IMG/VR virus record: IMGVR_UViG_3300015189_000008
Span: 1 to 41,362 of that record
Length of the DNA stretch: 41,362 nucleotides
Source of the DNA: a virus
Reading direction: 5' to 3' (one strand)
Part shown: piece after piece, positions 1-41,362 of the stretch
Layout: each line of letters starts with the position of its first letter
Numbering within the stretch: position 1 is the stretch's first letter
Made by a program: the position numbers and the translations under genes
The notes under the pieces: generated by a model
The model's input: the letters and a program-made list of their open reading frames with translations, nothing else
Database searches by the model: none
Told to the model about the DNA's origin: nothing

Positions 1-1
1 G

Positions 2-61
2 ATCTACGCTGACCCAAGCAGTGACATCAGCGTCAAGATTGCCGCGGCTGTGGTGCGGTAG
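2..61 (+). CDS. Partial tyrosine integrase (C-terminal end only)
   Basis: The frame beginning at base 2 encodes 19 residues (IYADPSSDISVKIAAAVVR) and a stop. It matches the last 19 residues of the integrase at 40419-41234 except for one Ser/Asn change. The Tyr of the IYADP motif is the expected catalytic tyrosine. The rest of the gene lies beyond the window edge, or, if the map is circular, this is an allelic copy of that same integrase. Confidence 0.85.
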   Translation: MYADPSSDISVKIAAAVVR

Positions 62-94
62 GTCAGTAGCCTGAACCCTGTCCCTCCAGACCAT

Positions 95-127
95 GCGTCC
101 CTCCCGCCTGGCACGCGGGAGGGACGC
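95..127. terminator. Bidirectional terminator between convergent genes
   Basis: A perfect 13-bp inverted repeat (95-107 with 115-127) encloses a 7-base loop. It lies between the convergent ends of the integrase (stop at 61) and the DUF2637 gene (stop at 136). There is no clear T-run, which is common in GC-rich actinobacterial terminators. The right-hand copy of the terminal repeat carries one extra G in its second arm. Confidence 0.7.
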
Positions 128-135
128 TGGGGTCC

Positions 136-942
136 TTAGCCGCCGGCAGCTGCCACTAGGTGCGGCGCGCGGACCTGCTCAGCCTCGAGCTCAGCAGCCC
201 ACCCGGCTACCCATCGCCGTGACGTCGCGGGGTCGCACGTGGCGCCGACGCTGGCGTGCAGATCCACGGCGCGCGGGCGGGCGTCCGGATCCGCCCGGAC
301 GATCCGGAGGAACTCCGCGCGCATCGCGGACTTCCCCCGGTCCGTGGGCACGTGCGGACTCTGCACGGGCTCAGGCGCTGACTGCACACGGACCTGCACG
401 GGGACGCCCGCGGACTTTGCGCGCGGTTTGCGCGCGGGCTCCCCCACCTGCTGCACGTGCATCTGGATCGTTGCCCGGTTGTCAGCCATGACGTGCGCGG
501 ACAGTCCGCGTGCCATCGACCGGCCGAGCACGTGGAAGCCCCAGGCGACGAGCATCGGTATGCCGGCGCCCACGGTGATGAGCAGCGGGCGCGGCATCGT
601 CGCGTCGCCCACGACCAGGGCGTGTTCGACGTTGCCGGCGACCGACAAGCTCAGGGCGAAGAACAGTCCGGCCCACTCCGAGACGCGCCCGCGCGCATGC
701 TCGCCGGTAGGAGCGCGGACGTTGACCGCGCAAACGACGGCAAACCCATCGATGCACAGGGGCAGAGCGAAGCTGGCGGCGCCGAAGCCCATCCGCTGAC
801 CCACCCAGACCTGGGCGAGGAAGCTGATGTATGCCGCGAGCAGGGACACGAAGAACACGCCCCAGAGAGTGAATCGTTCGAGGCCGATGCTCCTCTTCTC
901 GGAGACGGTGAGTCCGCGGGCAGATGCAGGCTGGTCAGTCAT
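136..942 (-). CDS. DUF2637 membrane protein with C-terminal DNA-binding-like tail
   Basis: The product has 268 residues if translation starts at the ATG at 942 (MTDQPASARG), which begins the conserved part; an upstream extension to 1071 looks spurious. Four hydrophobic segments fall at roughly residues 25-45, 50-75, 90-110 and 120-145. A charged C-terminal half includes a helical segment that could be a winged helix. DUF2637 proteins occur on actinobacterial plasmids, AICEs and phages, often beside an FtsK/TraB-type translocase, as here. The role is unproven: a membrane partner in DNA transfer or plasmid spread is the usual guess. This is the last gene of the leftward arm, separated from the translocase gene by the 8-bp repeat array. 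Confidence 0.8.
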   Translation of the reverse strand: MTDQPASARGLTVSEKRSIGLERFTLWGVFFVSLLAAYISFLAQVWVGQRMGFGAASFALPLCIDGFAVVCAVNVRAPTGEHARGRVSEWAGLFFALSLSVAGNVEHALVVGDATMPRPLLITVGAGIPMLVAWGFHVLGRSMARGLSAHVMADNRATIQMHVQQVGEPARKPRAKSAGVPVQVRVQSAPEPVQSPHVPTDRGKSAMRAEFLRIVRADPDARPRAVDLHASVGATCDPATSRRWVAGWAAELEAEQVRAPHLVAAAGG

Positions 943-5886: not shown

Positions 5887-6119
5887 GGGCTGATCGTCTC
5901 CTGGTCGGTGCGGACGGAGTAGTGAGACAAGACAACGGGGCGCCCTGTCGCGGTGGCGATGATCTGCGCGTGCCGGCGCAGCTTGGCGACCATGGCCAGG
6001 TCTGCACCCACCAGAGGTATCCACCCCATAGACGACTGCAGCCCGATTACGTCCTCGGTGCCGTCAGTGTCGACCTGCGTGAACGCCCACATGCTGTCGA
6101 TCCGTAGCTGACCGTCCAT
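5883..6119 (-). CDS. Small hypothetical protein after the integrase
   Basis: The product has 78 residues from the ATG at 6119, which overlaps the integrase stop by one base (TGATG). An extended start at 6131 inside the integrase is possible. The middle segment is LVGADLAMVAKLRRHAQIIATATGRPVVLSHYSVRTD. No domain is recognised. Tight coupling to the integrase suggests co-expression. Confidence 0.65.
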   Translation of the reverse strand: MDGQLRIDSMWAFTQVDTDGTEDVIGLQSSMGWIPLVGADLAMVAKLRRHAQIIATATGRPVVLSHYSVRTDQETISP

Positions 6120-6985
6120 CAGGCTGCCCACGCGATCGCCGCGCGCGTCGACTCGTCAGGAACCAGGACGTAGAGCTTGGTGGTCTCCGGCTTGGAGTGC
6201 CCGAGTAACGCCTGGACTGCGAGCAGGTCGTGGCTGCCGGCGTAGCAGATGGTGCCGAAGCGGTGCCGCAGGCAGTGCGTGGTCGACCCGACCCCGAGGA
6301 CCCGGCTGACGAGTTTGCCGACGTATGCCGGGCTCAGGTGCCCGTTGATCTGCCCGGGGAACACCCAGCCGTCCGGGGCGGCCTGGATCAGGACCCGCAC
6401 CTCATCGCACAGGGGCAGGAGGCGCTCCCGGGAGCCCTTGCCGTGGACCCGCAGGTTCCAGCCGGCCACGCCTTGCTCGACGTCGGCAGTGTGGACCTGC
6501 GCTATCTCGCCGCGGCGTAGGCCCTCCCGTGCCGCGAGGAGCACCATCAGGTGAACCCGCGGACTGGCTTGCAGTAGCGCCGAGGTCAGGACGAGCTCCG
6601 ACGTCGGGCGAGGCAACCTGTGCGGGGTCGTGACCGCAGGAAGACGCCAGGCGGGGTTGACCGCGATCTGCTCGGTATCGCGGGCCCACTTGTAGAACGC
6701 GCGCAGCGCAGTCCGGTAGCTGCGTTTCGTCTCCGCGCCCCACTGCTGTGTCCCGATCCACGCGACCATGTCCATCAGGGTCACCTCGAACGGCGCGAGA
6801 CCGGTCTCTCGGGCGAACCTACGAATCTGGTAGGTGCGCAGGTACTGAGTAGTCTGCGGCCGGTTCGCGGCACACATCCACTCCCCCCACTGCTCGAGCG
6901 GCGCAACCCAGGACGTTGGAACGATGGCAGTCATGCTCGTGACAATGCGTCCGTCCGAGGTCGCGAGAGCCAGATGGTGAGCCAT
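6119..6985 (-). CDS. int: Tyrosine integrase (int1)
   Basis: The product has 288 residues with an N-terminal SAM-like core-binding region (about 28-115) and a catalytic domain carrying all expected residues. These are R157 (EGLRRGE), K183 (VHGKGSRE), H237-x-x-R240 (HCLRHR), H263 (LGHSKPETT) and the nucleophile Y272 (KLYVLV). The length is typical of a short XerC/D-like recombinase without a long arm-binding domain. It lies in the same coupled leftward operon as the repressor, about 0.8 kb from a tRNA-derived core inside the repressor gene, so it is the likely enzyme for that attP. The start at 6985 is three bases after the upstream stop; MTAIVPTS at 6934 is an alternative. Confidence 0.92.
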   Translation of the reverse strand: MAHHLALATSDGRIVTSMTAIVPTSWVAPLEQWGEWMCAANRPQTTQYLRTYQIRRFARETGLAPFEVTLMDMVAWIGTQQWGAETKRSYRTALRAFYKWARDTEQIAVNPAWRLPAVTTPHRLPRPTSELVLTSALLQASPRVHLMVLLAAREGLRRGEIAQVHTADVEQGVAGWNLRVHGKGSRERLLPLCDEVRVLIQAAPDGWVFPGQINGHLSPAYVGKLVSRVLGVGSTTHCLRHRFGTICYAGSHDLLAVQALLGHSKPETTKLYVLVPDESTRAAIAWAA

Positions 6986-6988
6986 CAG

Positions 6989-7228
6989 TCATGCCTGACC
7001 GAAAGATGGGCGGGCGTGGCCCATCATCACCGACAGATCGCCAACATCGATGACCTGACCCAGCTGGTGGAGCATCGTCGCATCGAGGCCGACGTGCGGG
7101 CTCATGGTGTTGCCGACGTTGCCACCCGGGGGGACCCTGCGGAACTCGCCATGAGCCGAGCAGGTCAGCACAGCGGTGCCATCCTCGAGCATCTCGACGG
7201 TGTAGGTCACGCTTGGCCCGGCGCTCAC
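6989..7228 (-). CDS. Small hypothetical protein between repressor and integrase
   Basis: The product has 79 residues from the GTG at 7228, which overlaps the upstream stop by four bases (GTGA). The N-terminal part (VTYTVEMLEDGTAVLTCSAHGEF) looks like a beta hairpin with Cys and His. No family is recognised. Its position between repressor and integrase suggests expression in lysogens. Confidence 0.6.
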   Translation of the reverse strand: MSAGPSVTYTVEMLEDGTAVLTCSAHGEFRRVPPGGNVGNTMSPHVGLDATMLHQLGQVIDVGDLSVMMGHARPSFGQA

Positions 7229-7662
7229 AGCGAGCCACCTCCGGCGCGGTACGCGGCAATCGCACAGTGCTGCGCGCATTGCCGGCACCGGTGGTCCAAG
7301 CCATCTGACGACTGCACCGGTGCGCCGCACTTACAGTGGGTCGGCCAGTCTTCAGATTCCCATGCGGTCGTAGCGACCGAAGGCGGCATAGCGGTGTCCC
7401 GGAACCAGATGCGTTCCTCGGCCAGGTTGGCGCCCTCACTGAGTGCAGCCGCCAAGCCTCGAGCCTGAGCGGGTGTCATGGCTGGCACTGCATCCCGGTG
7501 CTGTCCGTCAACGTCCATCCAGATGGTGACTCCGACGATGCCGTGATCCGGTCCCGAACTGATGTTGTCACCGACCCTCACGTCGTATGTCGACAGCCGG
7601 AACGGTGGCTGAACCGGCATCTCCGAGGTGATGCTGTCCAGCCAGTCACGGCTGCTCATCAC
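7225..7662 (-). CDS. Hypothetical protein with C-terminal zinc ribbon
   Basis: The product has 145 residues from GTG 7662 or the adjacent ATG 7659, overlapping the repressor stop. The N-terminal 90 residues form an unknown alpha/beta domain. The C-terminus has two Cys pairs (CKCG near 110 and CRQC near 126) and a third pair region (QHC), which looks like a zinc ribbon. It directly follows the repressor, so it should share its message. After integration at the core inside the repressor gene, this gene would be separated from the repressor promoter. Confidence 0.65.
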   Translation of the reverse strand: MMSSRDWLDSITSEMPVQPPFRLSTYDVRVGDNISSGPDHGIVGVTIWMDVDGQHRDAVPAMTPAQARGLAAALSEGANLAEERIWFRDTAMPPSVATTAWESEDWPTHCKCGAPVQSSDGLDHRCRQCAQHCAIAAYRAGGGSL

Positions 7663-8072
7663 GCCGCCTCAGGCGTGGCGATCGCAGGCCTTGACGTCGG
7701 CCGGACCCGCCTCCTGCGCTCGAACGGAAGGACCTCGGCGAGCTCACTCCGATTCAGTGCTCTGATCCAGCGGGTTGGGGGTTCAAGTCCCTCACGGCGC
7801 ACTGCATCCAGCCCCTCATCCGACATGCTCGGCTGGGGGGCTTCTTGCTGCCCAGTCAGCAACCACCCCACGTTCGTCCCAGTGATGAGCGCCCACTGCT
7901 TTACGTAGGCTGCCCGGGGCGGTGCGCCCTTGTCTGCCATCCAACGTGCGACGGTCGCCCGGTGGACCCCTAAGTCCCTTGCGATGTCTTGCGCCGCGAG
8001 GCCAGCTGCCGCCATTCTGAGCCGCCAACCCAGTGTCAGGGACGGTATGTGATCGTGCGCCATGTCGGTCAT
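7659..8072 (-). CDS. Immunity repressor with HTH and attP-encoded C-terminal tail
   Basis: The product has 137 residues. The HTH spans about residues 27-48 (AQDIARDLGVHRATVARWMADKG), with a compact helical region to about 75. Residues 91-101 (VRREGLEPPTR) are encoded by a sequence complementary to a tRNA 3' end, the presumed attP core. A basic tail of 36 residues ends ATPEAA, reminiscent of C-terminal degrons recognised by ClpXP-type proteases. It is transcribed divergently from the excisionase/Cro-like gene at 8169, across repeated operator-like sequences. The arrangement parallels the BPs/Brujita mycobacteriophage repressors, where integration removes a degradation tail and stabilises the repressor. 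It is called repressor from position and HTH only. Confidence 0.82.
   Translation of the reverse strand: MTDMAHDHIPSLTLGWRLRMAAAGLAAQDIARDLGVHRATVARWMADKGAPPRAAYVKQWALITGTNVGWLLTGQQEAPQPSMSDEGLDAVRREGLEPPTRWIRALNRSELAEVLPFERRRRVRPTSRPAIATPEAA
7768..7801 (+). other. Presumed attP core (tRNA 3' end, Lys-like)
   Basis: On the plus strand this reads as the 3' part of a tRNA. It has anticodon-stem 3' strand, variable loop GGGTT, T-stem GGGGG with CCCTC, T-loop TTCAAGT, and acceptor strand ACGGCGC plus discriminator A. No 5' half precedes it, so it is not a complete tRNA gene. From memory, actinobacterial tRNA-Lys genes match this segment from CAGCGGG to the end, so the host site is probably the 3' end of tRNA-Lys. 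The exact crossover limits cannot be set without the host. It lies wholly inside the repressor gene. Confidence 0.75.
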
Positions 8073-8183
8073 GCGTCACAGTGTGTCCCCATGATGCACA
8101 TGCGTCAAGGCGACACCGCATGATAATTGGCGGGTCGCGGCGCTTGCGCGTCATGTGACCTATGCGGCATGATGCGACCTATG
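8070..8183. promoter_or_regulatory. Divergent switch region with repeated operator-like sequences
   Basis: Three short sequences are duplicated here: CATGCGTCA at 8070 and 8099 (29 bp apart, with a GCGTCA partial match at 8148), CATGATGC at 8090 and 8168, and GACCTATG at 8157 and 8176. TGATAAT (8121-8127) is a possible plus-strand -10, and its overlapping complement TATCAT is a possible minus-strand -10; no good -35 is seen for either. The region separates the repressor from the rightward early genes, and the first repeat overlaps the repressor start codon, which would allow autoregulation. Confidence 0.6.
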
Positions 8184-8426
8184 GCGCAGACAGATCTCAT
8201 CACCAGTGTTGAAGCCGCTCACATCCTCGGACGGTCGATCCGCACCGTGCACCGACTCGTTGCGACCGATGTCTTAGTCCCAGCGAAGCGCATGAGCCTC
8301 GGCCCCAATGGCGCTTTCCTCTTCGATCGCGCTGTCGTCGAGAAGCTCGCCAAGAGCCTGCCGTTCGCCAGGCCCACGATGAACGTCCCCCTGGATGTTG
8401 CCGGCGACGTAAAGCAATCGGCGTGA
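8169..8426 (+). CDS. Excisionase/Cro-like HTH protein
   Basis: The product is 81-85 residues (starts at 8169, 8172 or 8181). The helix-turn-helix ITSVEAAHILGRSIRTVHRLVATDVLVPAKR, followed by a short wing (GAFLFDRAVVEKLA), is the MerR-like HTH of excisionases and small phage regulators. It is the first rightward gene facing the repressor, the usual place of Cro or Xis. No Shine-Dalgarno is obvious, so it may be leaderless. Which of the two roles it has cannot be decided from sequence. Confidence 0.7.
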   Translation: MMRPMAQTDLITSVEAAHILGRSIRTVHRLVATDVLVPAKRMSLGPNGAFLFDRAVVEKLAKSLPFARPTMNVPLDVAGDVKQSA

Positions 8427-11459: not shown

Positions 11460-11818
11460 GCCCTATCAGCAAGGAGAATCGCGCCCGCTACCCGAAGGAC
11501 TGGCGCGACATCAGCGCAGCCATTAAGGCACGGGCAGAGAACCGCTGCGAATGCTTCGGGGAGTGCGGCCGCGGTACCCACGATGGGCGCTGCACCAACC
11601 GCCACGGAGCGCCGGCCTACGGCACCGGCTCCATCGTGGTCTTGACGACGGCGCACCTGAACCACACGCCTGAGGACTGCCGGCCGGAGAACCTAAAGTC
11701 GATGTGTCAGGGCTGCCACCTGCACTACGACCGGGACCACCACGCACAAACCCGCGAGGCTACCCGGCGCGCGGCGCTGGCTGCACAGATGGACGGACTT
11801 TTCGAGGTGAGCCAATGA
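11456..11818 (+). CDS. HNH-endonuclease-like protein
   Basis: The product has 120 residues from the ATG at 11456. Cys pairs CECFGEC and the core LTTAHLNHTPEDCRPENLKSMCQGCHLHYD match the HNH beta-beta-alpha metal fold (AHL as the first His position, NL..MC..CH..YD). It may be a homing-type or replication-associated nuclease. A second HNH protein, of a different subtype, lies before the terminase. Confidence 0.75.
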   Translation: MSPISKENRARYPKDWRDISAAIKARAENRCECFGECGRGTHDGRCTNRHGAPAYGTGSIVVLTTAHLNHTPEDCRPENLKSMCQGCHLHYDRDHHAQTREATRRAALAAQMDGLFEVSQ

Positions 11819-12528
11819 GTGACACAGATCCTGGTGACCGTGAAGCAATAATCATGCGCAGACCGCGGCTGCTGGACCTGTTCTGCGGTGGCGGTGGGTG
11901 CTCGGTCGGCTACTCCAGGGCAGGGTTTGAAGTCATCGGTGTGGATCTCCGACCGATGCCCAACTTCCCCTTCGAGTTTCATCAGTCCGACGCGTTGGAG
12001 TTTCTTGCCCAGCATGGCCATGAGTTCGATGCGATCCACGCCAGCCCGCCGTGTCAGCGGCACAGTGCCATGAGTGCGTGCCGACCGGGCTTGGCTGACG
12101 AGTACCCCGACCTGATCGCACCGACCCGTCACCTACTCGACCTCGCGGGTCTGCCCTATGTCATTGAGAACGTCGCCGGCGCTCCTCTGGCAAGTGGAGA
12201 TGACCTGTTTGGATCACACGGCGTAGAGCTTTGCGGGGTGATGTTCTCCCTGCCGCTGTACCGGCACCGCCTCTTTGAGACGAGTTTCCCGATCACCCAA
12301 CCGAGTCACCCGAACCACGCCATCCCTGCGAGCAAGGCCGGGCACTGGCGACCGGGGACGGTTATCAGCGTGTCGGGCAACTGCTCGCCCATCGCTCTCG
12401 CCCGCGCGGCTATGGGCATCGACTGGATGACCCGCGACGAGCTGGGCGAGTCGATCCCGCCCGCGTATACCGAGCACATCGGGCACCAACTGCTAGCCCA
12501 CATCACACGCAAGGCGGTGGCCGCATGA
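11815..12528 (+). CDS. C5 cytosine DNA methyltransferase-like protein
   Basis: The product has 237 residues from the ATG at 11815 (overlaps the HNH stop). Motif I LLDLFCGGGGCSVGYSRAGF binds AdoMet; motif IV HASPPCQRHS carries the catalytic Cys; motif VI is YVIENVAGAP; a motif VIII-like YRHRLFET follows. The target-recognition region is very short compared with the 300-450 residues of full C5 enzymes, as in many phage methylases. The conserved part begins at MRRPRLLD, so the first 13 residues (MSDTDPGDREAII) are an extra leader. It probably protects phage DNA from restriction. Confidence 0.85.
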   Translation: MSDTDPGDREAIIMRRPRLLDLFCGGGGCSVGYSRAGFEVIGVDLRPMPNFPFEFHQSDALEFLAQHGHEFDAIHASPPCQRHSAMSACRPGLADEYPDLIAPTRHLLDLAGLPYVIENVAGAPLASGDDLFGSHGVELCGVMFSLPLYRHRLFETSFPITQPSHPNHAIPASKAGHWRPGTVISVSGNCSPIALARAAMGIDWMTRDELGESIPPAYTEHIGHQLLAHITRKAVAA

Positions 12529-18707: not shown

Positions 18708-19285
18708 GATTCGACGGCTCCGACAGCGACGACTTCACCTACCTGCGAGCAGAGACCCGAGAAGGGCACCAGTTCACACCGACCTACGGACCCGACAAGC
18801 GGCCAACGATCTGGAACCCGGCCGAGTGGGGCGGGCGAATCCCCCGCCTCGAGGTCGATGCCGCGCTGGCCGAGACGTTCGCGACCTACCGCGTCGCCCG
18901 GGGCTACTTCGACCCGCCGTGGTGGCAGTCCGAGATCGAGGCCTGGGCCCTGAGGTTCGGGGAGACGGTCGTCATCCCATGGGCGACCTACCGGACCGCG
19001 CAGATGCACGCCGCCTGCCAGCGATTCGTCACCGATCTCACCACCGGTGCGCTCACCCACGATGACTGCCCCACCACGGCCCTGCACATCGCCAACGCCC
19101 GTAAGAAAGCCGTCGGCGCTGACCGTTACGTCTTGACCAAACCGGCCGGCGCCTACCACCGCAAGATCGACGGCGCCGCGACCTCTGTCATCTGCCATGA
19201 GGCTGCCGCCGATGCTCGAGCTGATGGGTGGGGCGTCGCGAAACACAACCTGACCCGCGCCCGCGGAAGGGTCTCCACATACTGA
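18689..19285 (+). CDS. Terminase large subunit, nuclease part
   Basis: The product has 198 residues from ATG 18689 (a GTG at 18677 gives 202). VCLGFDGSDSDDFTYL supplies the first RNase-H-like catalytic Asp, followed by PWWQSEIEAWALRF and conserved C-terminal features of actinophage terminases. It overlaps the ATPase frame by 19 bases. GGGAG at 18679-18683 could act as its ribosome-binding site. The ATG sits in the loop of a small hairpin formed by two GACGTC palindromes (18683-18688 and 18695-18700). Confidence 0.85.
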   Translation: MQDVCLGFDGSDSDDFTYLRAETREGHQFTPTYGPDKRPTIWNPAEWGGRIPRLEVDAALAETFATYRVARGYFDPPWWQSEIEAWALRFGETVVIPWATYRTAQMHAACQRFVTDLTTGALTHDDCPTTALHIANARKKAVGADRYVLTKPAGAYHRKIDGAATSVICHEAAADARADGWGVAKHNLTRARGRVSTY

Positions 19286-40418: not shown

Positions 40419-41234
40419 ATGAGTCACCCCATCCCCCTGACAGACCCTCTCTCAATCGCCTGGATCGAGTGGTGCCGCAACGAGCACGTCCCGCCGAACA
40501 CCATCGCCCGTCGGGTGGCTACGCTCCGCTCGATCGGCAACGCCGGCACAGCGACCCGCGAGGACGTCGAGACCTGGTGGGCTGCCCGCACCGGCCTAGC
40601 CCCCTCCAGCCGTGCCAGCGACCTCGCCGGCATCCGGTCCTTCCTCAAATGGTGCCGGCGCTGGGAACACCGGACCGACGACCCGACCCTGCGCATCGAC
40701 CCCCCGCACGTCCCGACCGGCCTGCCGCACCCGATGGCCAAGCACGACCTGGAGAAGGCCCTGAGCACCTTCGAGCCTGACCTTCGCCGTGCCGTATGCC
40801 TGGGTGCATACGCAGGGTGCCGCATCCACGAGGCTGCGGCCCTGAACTGGCCTGAGATCGACGTCGAGGCCAGGACACTGCGGGTCCTGCACGGCAAGGG
40901 CCACGCGGGCGGCAAGGAGAGGCTCATCGCGATCTCCCCCGTCCTGATCGACCAGCTGCTGCCTGACACCGGCGGTAACGTCGTGTCGGCGGGCCATAAG
41001 CCCTACACCGCGGCGACGCTGCAGCGCCGGGTCAACCGGGCGTTCGATCGGGCCGGGATCAGCGGAACCTCGCACGCGCTCCGCCACCGGTACGGGACCA
41101 TGGCGTACCAGGCGACCGGGGACCTGCTCGCGGTCGGCCGGATGATGGGTCACGCCTCACCGGTGACGACAGCGATCTACGCCGACCCGAGCAACGACAT
41201 CAGCGTCAAGATTGCCGCCGCCGTGGTGCGGTAG
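40419..41234 (+). CDS. Tyrosine integrase (int2), different from int1
   Basis: The product has 271 residues (MSHPIPLTDPLSIAWIEWCRNEH). It has an N-terminal core-binding domain (about 8-95) and a catalytic domain with R135 (AGCRIHEAA), K160 (LHGKGHAGG), H219-x-x-R222 (HALRHR), H245 (GHASPVTT) and Y254 (AIYADP). All catalytic residues are present. It is clearly diverged from int1. It faces the DUF2637/translocase module across the circular junction, like the integrase of an AICE. Its attachment site is not identified. Confidence 0.92.
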   Translation: MSHPIPLTDPLSIAWIEWCRNEHVPPNTIARRVATLRSIGNAGTATREDVETWWAARTGLAPSSRASDLAGIRSFLKWCRRWEHRTDDPTLRIDPPHVPTGLPHPMAKHDLEKALSTFEPDLRRAVCLGAYAGCRIHEAAALNWPEIDVEARTLRVLHGKGHAGGKERLIAISPVLIDQLLPDTGGNVVSAGHKPYTAATLQRRVNRAFDRAGISGTSHALRHRYGTMAYQATGDLLAVGRMMGHASPVTTAIYADPSNDISVKIAAAVVR

Positions 41235-41362
41235 GTCAGTAGCCTGAACCTGTCCCTCCAGACCATGCGTCCCTCCCGCCTGGCACGCGGGGAGGGACGC
41301 TGGGGTCCTTAGCCGCCGGCAGCTGCCACCAGGTGCGGCGCGCGGACCTGCTCAGCCTCGAG
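41174..41362. repeat. Terminal near-repeat, right copy
   Basis: This is the partner of 1-189, about 95 percent identical. It carries the true 3' end of int2, the terminator hairpin (41267-41300, with one extra G) and the last codons of the DUF2637 gene. Confidence 0.9.
41309..41362 (-). CDS. Partial DUF2637 gene (C-terminal end)
   Basis: The last 17 codons (LEAEQVRAPHLVAAAGG) and stop are identical in protein to the end of the gene at 136-942. The gene is cut by the window edge and, on a circular map, continues at position 190. Confidence 0.85.
   Translation of the reverse strand, partial: LEAEQVRAPHLVAAAGG

Follow-up and report, generated by a model that had tools for sequence, protein, structure and literature searches.

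An attachment core inside the repressor gene of an uncultured, probably Dermatophilaceae phage: a probable integration-dependent immunity switch

The window, by which we mean the whole stretch of 41,362 bases analyzed, encodes an immunity repressor, two small ORFs and a tyrosine integrase on the minus strand, and a helix-turn-helix (HTH) gene diverging from the repressor on the plus strand. The features at this locus are:

6119..6985, minus: tyrosine integrase, 288 aa, ending AIAWAA (Pfam Phage_integrase, E 1.4e-14; Gordonia phage relatives 41-48% identical)
6989..7330, minus: second small ORF, putative, in the interval from repressor to integrase
7225..7662, minus: small ORF, 145 aa, with a Cys/His-rich end and a start overlapping the repressor stop; counterpart in a sister phage
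8072..7659, minus: immunity repressor, viral form, 137 aa from 137 codons, HTH domain at about residues 18-77; homologues annotated "immunity repressor"
7662..7769, minus: C-terminal tail of the repressor (codons 102-137), ending ATPEAA as a putative ssrA-like degron; integration is predicted to remove it
7767..7769, minus: switch codon 102, TGG (Trp) in the phage, predicted to become TGA (stop) once joined to the host tRNA
7762..7803, plus: 42 bp identical to the sister phage, the surrounding repressor coding sequence being unrelated (blastn against G002; sequence of L002)
7768..7802, plus: common core of attP, 35 bp long, or 36 counting the T at 7803; identical to the 3' half of tRNA-Lys(CTT), it codes residues 91-101 in antisense (exact match to the tRNA-Lys(CTT) in L005 3688-3761)
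8073..8180, no strand: divergent control region from repressor to HTH gene (gene layout)
8181..8426, plus: divergent HTH gene, excisionase/Cro-like (HTH_17 and phrog_66 "excisionase and regulator", weak); the longest ORF runs from 8127, the start near 8181 being a prediction

The initial annotation had described an ORF of 137 aa at 7659-8072 with VRREGLEPPTR at residues 91-101 and a 36-residue tail ending PEAA, and all of this was confirmed; the tail after R101 reads WIRALNRSELAEVLPFERRRRVRPTSRPAIATPEAA. Assignment as a repressor is backed by PHROG 2328 ("transcriptional repressor"), which matches residues 6-127 in a profile search (E 1.4e-21), and by Pfam HTH_23 and Phage_CI_repr. Annotated immunity repressors of Gordonia and Mycobacterium phages are 33-42% identical to the product, and no near-identical DNA was found among annotated phages.

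The neighborhood has the layout of integration-dependent immunity systems. The integrase lies downstream of the repressor in the same direction and has an AA end of its own, with the two small ORFs intervening, and the Cro-like/excisionase-like HTH gene (8127/8181-8426, plus) diverges across the control region. That region presumably holds the operator and both promoters; no sigma-70-like promoter was recognized in it and no clear palindrome that could serve as operator, only short imperfect repeats. The small ORF at 7225-7662 has no Pfam matches and only weak PHROG matches. Its counterpart in the sister phage (L002 10117-10389) shares the pattern CxCGxPVQ...HCAIAAY, and its overlap with the repressor stop hints at coupled translation that integration would break. 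A DNA methyltransferase-like gene (11704-12528, PHROG 363) ends KAVAA, and is the sole other AA-ending ORF among those checked in the window. The two ends of the window (1-189 and 41174-41362) are 95% identical across 190 bases, and each has its match in the middle of the contig of the sister phage. The 41,362-base record probably represents a whole genome, circularly permuted and assembled with an imperfect overlap.

Residues 91-101 of the repressor are the antisense reading of a tRNA segment. The initial annotation had recognized this tRNA 3' end within the repressor gene and given its length as 34 bp; the segment is there, but it measures 35 bp, since the C at 7768 matches too. The exact 34-mer has a single occurrence among 84,980 bacterial and archaeal genomes (one per species), within the tRNA-Lys(CTT) gene of a Dermatophilaceae MAG, and a single one among 2.9 million viral contigs, a collection from which the window's own record may be left out; that occurrence is the sister phage. 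In the MAG the tRNA-Lys(CTT) gene reads CTCTTAATCAGCGGGTTGGGGGTTCAAGTCCCTCACGGCGCAC, and its antisense strand encodes VRREGLEPPTR followed by TGA. A single base makes the difference: T-C-A in the tRNA corresponds to C-C-A in the phage, and the T, the first host base past the 35-bp core, creates the stop. It had been predicted that a tRNA-Lys attB reading TCAGCGGG would place TGA directly after R101 and leave a prophage form of 101 residues. The host tRNA-Lys then still to be found is now located in this public MAG, and the real gene introduces the stop as foreseen, one base being responsible. Nearest tRNA matches in other Dermatophilaceae genomes are 2-3 bases off, leaving one MAG as candidate host. 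The phage's own host is probably a member of the Dermatophilaceae (Micrococcales); no integrated copy of the exact phage was found in the genomes searched.

At the level of sequence, an exact match of 35 bases to a tRNA half excludes an origin by chance. It is scarcely credible that the piece is a relic or tRNA fragment devoid of attachment function. No tRNA or Rfam gene was called across the window, where only a fragment lies, and this is also what is expected for half a tRNA. A tyrosine integrase, however, sits alongside, and it is precisely this segment of the tRNA that bounds homologous prophages. Chance and relic origins were both rejected on the exact match, the adjoining integrase and these prophage boundaries.

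The integrated state was read from related prophages. Repressor residues 1-90 were searched against 396 Micrococcales genomes and gave matches in 14 genomes. In the Dermatophilaceae, junctions were located by pairing integrase matches with repressor matches; a tRNA screen of integrase matches misses attR, because attR contains no whole tRNA. Three related prophages had readable junctions, one in a Micrococcales genome (G193) and two in Dermatophilaceae (G096 and G124). All three have direct repeats at a tRNA-Lys, int beside attR, and at attL a truncated repressor that stops in the tRNA anticodon arm, and their rebuilt viral repressors have tails ending LAA, PAA or SAA. The best match is G193, with 53% identity to the window phage in the repressor N-terminal part and 49% in the integrase. 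Its 35-bp repeats lie at 329206 and 362112 (32.9 kb apart), with int at 329442. The attL repressor reads ...VRHQGLEPRTR-stop, ending ...EVRHQGLEPRTR-TGA inside the antisense tRNA-Lys(CTT). When the flanks are joined, attB is an intact tRNA-Lys, and the rebuilt attP repressor reads through to ...GLEPRTRWFSASDRLAA, also given as ...TRWFSASDRLAA; the switch codon undergoes the same TGG to TGA change that is predicted for the window phage. The prophages in G096 and G124 have repeats of 38 and 39 bp and use the second reading frame of the tRNA segment; their attL forms end PKPAD-TAA and PEPAD-TAA, and the rebuilt tails DEPAA and LSAA.

More widely, the stop fell inside the antisense anticodon arm in all 14 prophage copies that had a complete tRNA and were found by repressor homology, whether this was tRNA-Lys, -Arg, -Asn or -Thr. 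None of the 14 used the third frame, in which the reading continues or meets a stop far later in these tRNAs. Were the copies independent, early-stop frames throughout would be expected by chance about once in 1,000 times; since they are related, this statistic is weak and the absence of the third frame is suggestive only.

The sister phage, IMGVR_UViG_3300034965_000017 (G002, 41,183 bases), is partly collinear with the window, and its integrase is 89% identical at the protein level. The N-terminal part of its repressor gave no match to the window repressor, residues 90-107 alone being matched. The 42 bp recur in it, read in an identical frame as VRREGLEPPTRWI and followed by a different tail of 27 residues ending QVAA, so that its predicted forms have 110 and 83 residues. 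The 3' halves of tRNA genes are the commonest attB sites for tyrosine integrases, and with an integrase nearby an attachment site near the repressor is to be expected; the core could then have come to lie in the gene by happenstance, with no regulatory meaning and both repressor forms equal. We find this most unlikely. Two unrelated repressors sharing one core in one open frame are hard to explain without a function, every prophage copy with a complete tRNA stops in the anticodon arm, and AA ends are strongly enriched. The pair offers a clean natural experiment on the swapping of immunity specificity. Since the frame is common to both sisters, a hybrid att site between them would join the repressor of one to the tail of the other, a situation argued to be non-viable for tandem lysogens (PMC9934374).

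Several known systems resemble this locus. Integration-dependent immunity was reportedly described by Broussard in 2013 for the mycobacteriophages BPs, Brujita and Charlie. Like the window phage, these have attP in the repressor ORF, a downstream integrase on the same strand, a divergent HTH gene, a stop supplied by the host and a tail that is lost. The BPs repressor gp33 has forms of 136 and 103 residues (PMC4557955, Villanueva 2015), in agreement with the lengths quoted in the initial annotation and very similar to the 137 and 101 of the window phage; for BPs, stabilizing the tail is reported to raise the frequency of lysogeny. The cores of Brujita and Charlie differ from ours, as do the host lineage and, as far as seen, the tRNA target. 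Unlike the BPs group, the window phage has two small ORFs between repressor and integrase, and the earlier remark that its architecture is otherwise different is fair; Gordonia phage GMA5 has one ORF at this position.

GMA5 belongs with Gordonia cluster CW and relatives (McGonagall, Jeanie, GMA5, Emperor, SallySpecial, EricDab and Rahul), which share the tRNA-Lys target class and have integrases 44-48% identical to that of the window phage. They differ from it in their genomes of 16-17 kb, their Gordonia hosts and, mostly, in using the other frame (IRDSNPEPAD), although Rahul has the same frame, VRHQGLEPRTRW, under a record label that says merely immunity repressor. Diverged repressors with one common att core are known among the Gordonia tRNA-Lys users (PMC5559632), and in total we saw an antisense tRNA end near the repressor C-terminus in nine annotated phages. 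The Mycobacterium abscessus prophages MabB, MabC, MabH, MabK, MabN and MabO have a truncated repressor at attL, with AA tags in many (PMC8092301; PMC9934374). In several of the M. abscessus prophages the stop is completed by the first bacterial base (PMC8092301), the same logic as in the window phage, and unrelated repressors read one core in different frames (PMC9934374). Their att sites and hosts are different, however, and the phiGD34-2 repressor is just 33% identical. In the Bifidobacterium prophages Bb423phi2 and 689b-1, which also have a different host, the viral repressor rebuilt in silico gains an 18-residue tail with an ssrA-like end (PMC6109161).

The window repressor ends ATPEAA and so has the AA tag typical of these systems, as far as its presence goes. 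Of 16 repressors in viral, viral-like or rebuilt form, 15 have a terminal AA, the exception being Curtobacterium phage Barebow (RRAS); of 89 other genes, complete and annotated, on the same stretches of phage DNA, 4 do. Among relatives sharing the frame, tails range from 10 to 36 residues and their sequences differ. With length and sequence otherwise unconstrained, a C-terminal degradation signal is favored over a folded domain, and the tail is a putative degron, read mainly from its terminal AA, PEAA differing from the usual LAA. The tail might instead inhibit by other means than proteolysis, blocking oligomerization, DNA binding or folding, with attP still in the repressor gene and integration still truncating it. 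The unusually basic (RRRR) and long tail, its non-canonical end, and some M. abscessus phages of this arrangement that have no AA tags (PMC8092301) are consistent with such an action. We nevertheless judge it improbable, given a final AA kept through such varied tails and the behavior of BPs, whose long form binds DNA like the short form but is inactivated by degradation through an ssrA-like tag, the short form being stable and repressing (PMC4557955).

An integration-dependent immunity switch is thus, with high probability, the best explanation for the locus. Its attP core lies within the repressor coding sequence, and a host junction with a real tRNA-Lys yields a stop and a shorter repressor, an outcome seen at the attL of related prophages rather than of the window phage itself. 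Every feature of such immunity that can be tested in sequence was found here, so we count the window phage among these systems. What can be read from the DNA is the core, its frame, the stop that a real tRNA supplies and, in three related prophages, the same rearrangement. We infer that the long form is degraded, that the short form is active and that the operon is expressed, as follows. In free phage DNA, the repressor with its 36-residue, AA-ending tail would probably be degraded and the lytic program would run. Recombination by the integrase would take place between the core and the 3' half of the tRNA-Lys(CTT) gene in the host, and phage sequence would restore the tRNA. Reading of the repressor would then continue, in antisense, into the host-derived portion of this tRNA; there the first host base turns TGG into TGA, and the product would be a tail-less repressor of 101 residues, probably stable, that represses the lytic genes. 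Integration would also part the integrase from the repressor promoter.

The window phage is a convincing further example of a mechanism known from mycobacterial and Gordonia phages, and described also for M. abscessus prophages and Bifidobacterium. The finding is therefore confirmatory more than surprising. It brings an uncultured Micrococcales phage, probably of Dermatophilaceae, into the range of a simple lysis-lysogeny switch whereby integration itself turns on immunity, with intact examples in bacterial genomes of the order; the swap of repressors between the sisters around an unchanged att core and the breadth among Micrococcales prophages are what is added. Tentatively, and with a little more doubt than belief, we suggest two things for this branch of actinobacterial phages. 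Selection may have acted on the antisense anticodon arm itself as a stop device, unrelated repressors repeatedly carrying the tRNA half only in early-stop frames; and att core and frame may form an exchange joint at which sister phages swap the DNA-binding parts of their repressors with the switch left intact.

Tailed repressors of related types were met elsewhere. Gene 19 of Barebow (L006) is annotated merely as a helix-turn-helix protein; it carries an antisense tRNA end in the GLEPPTF frame before its RRAS tail, and resembles this switch except that the AA tag is missing. One bacterial genome (L060, G248:C1:589765-589983) has a tailed, viral-like repressor of the window repressor's family that ends RTPVAA, with a tRNA-Asn-like core and no adjacent tRNA, near other copies; a tandem or rearranged prophage is a possible source. 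In a bacterial bin (L075, G185:C450:17860-18036), a sister-type repressor with the core-like VRHPRLERGTRW and a tail ending TEAA has an integrase alongside at 18896, and probably belongs to a free phage contig binned with its host.
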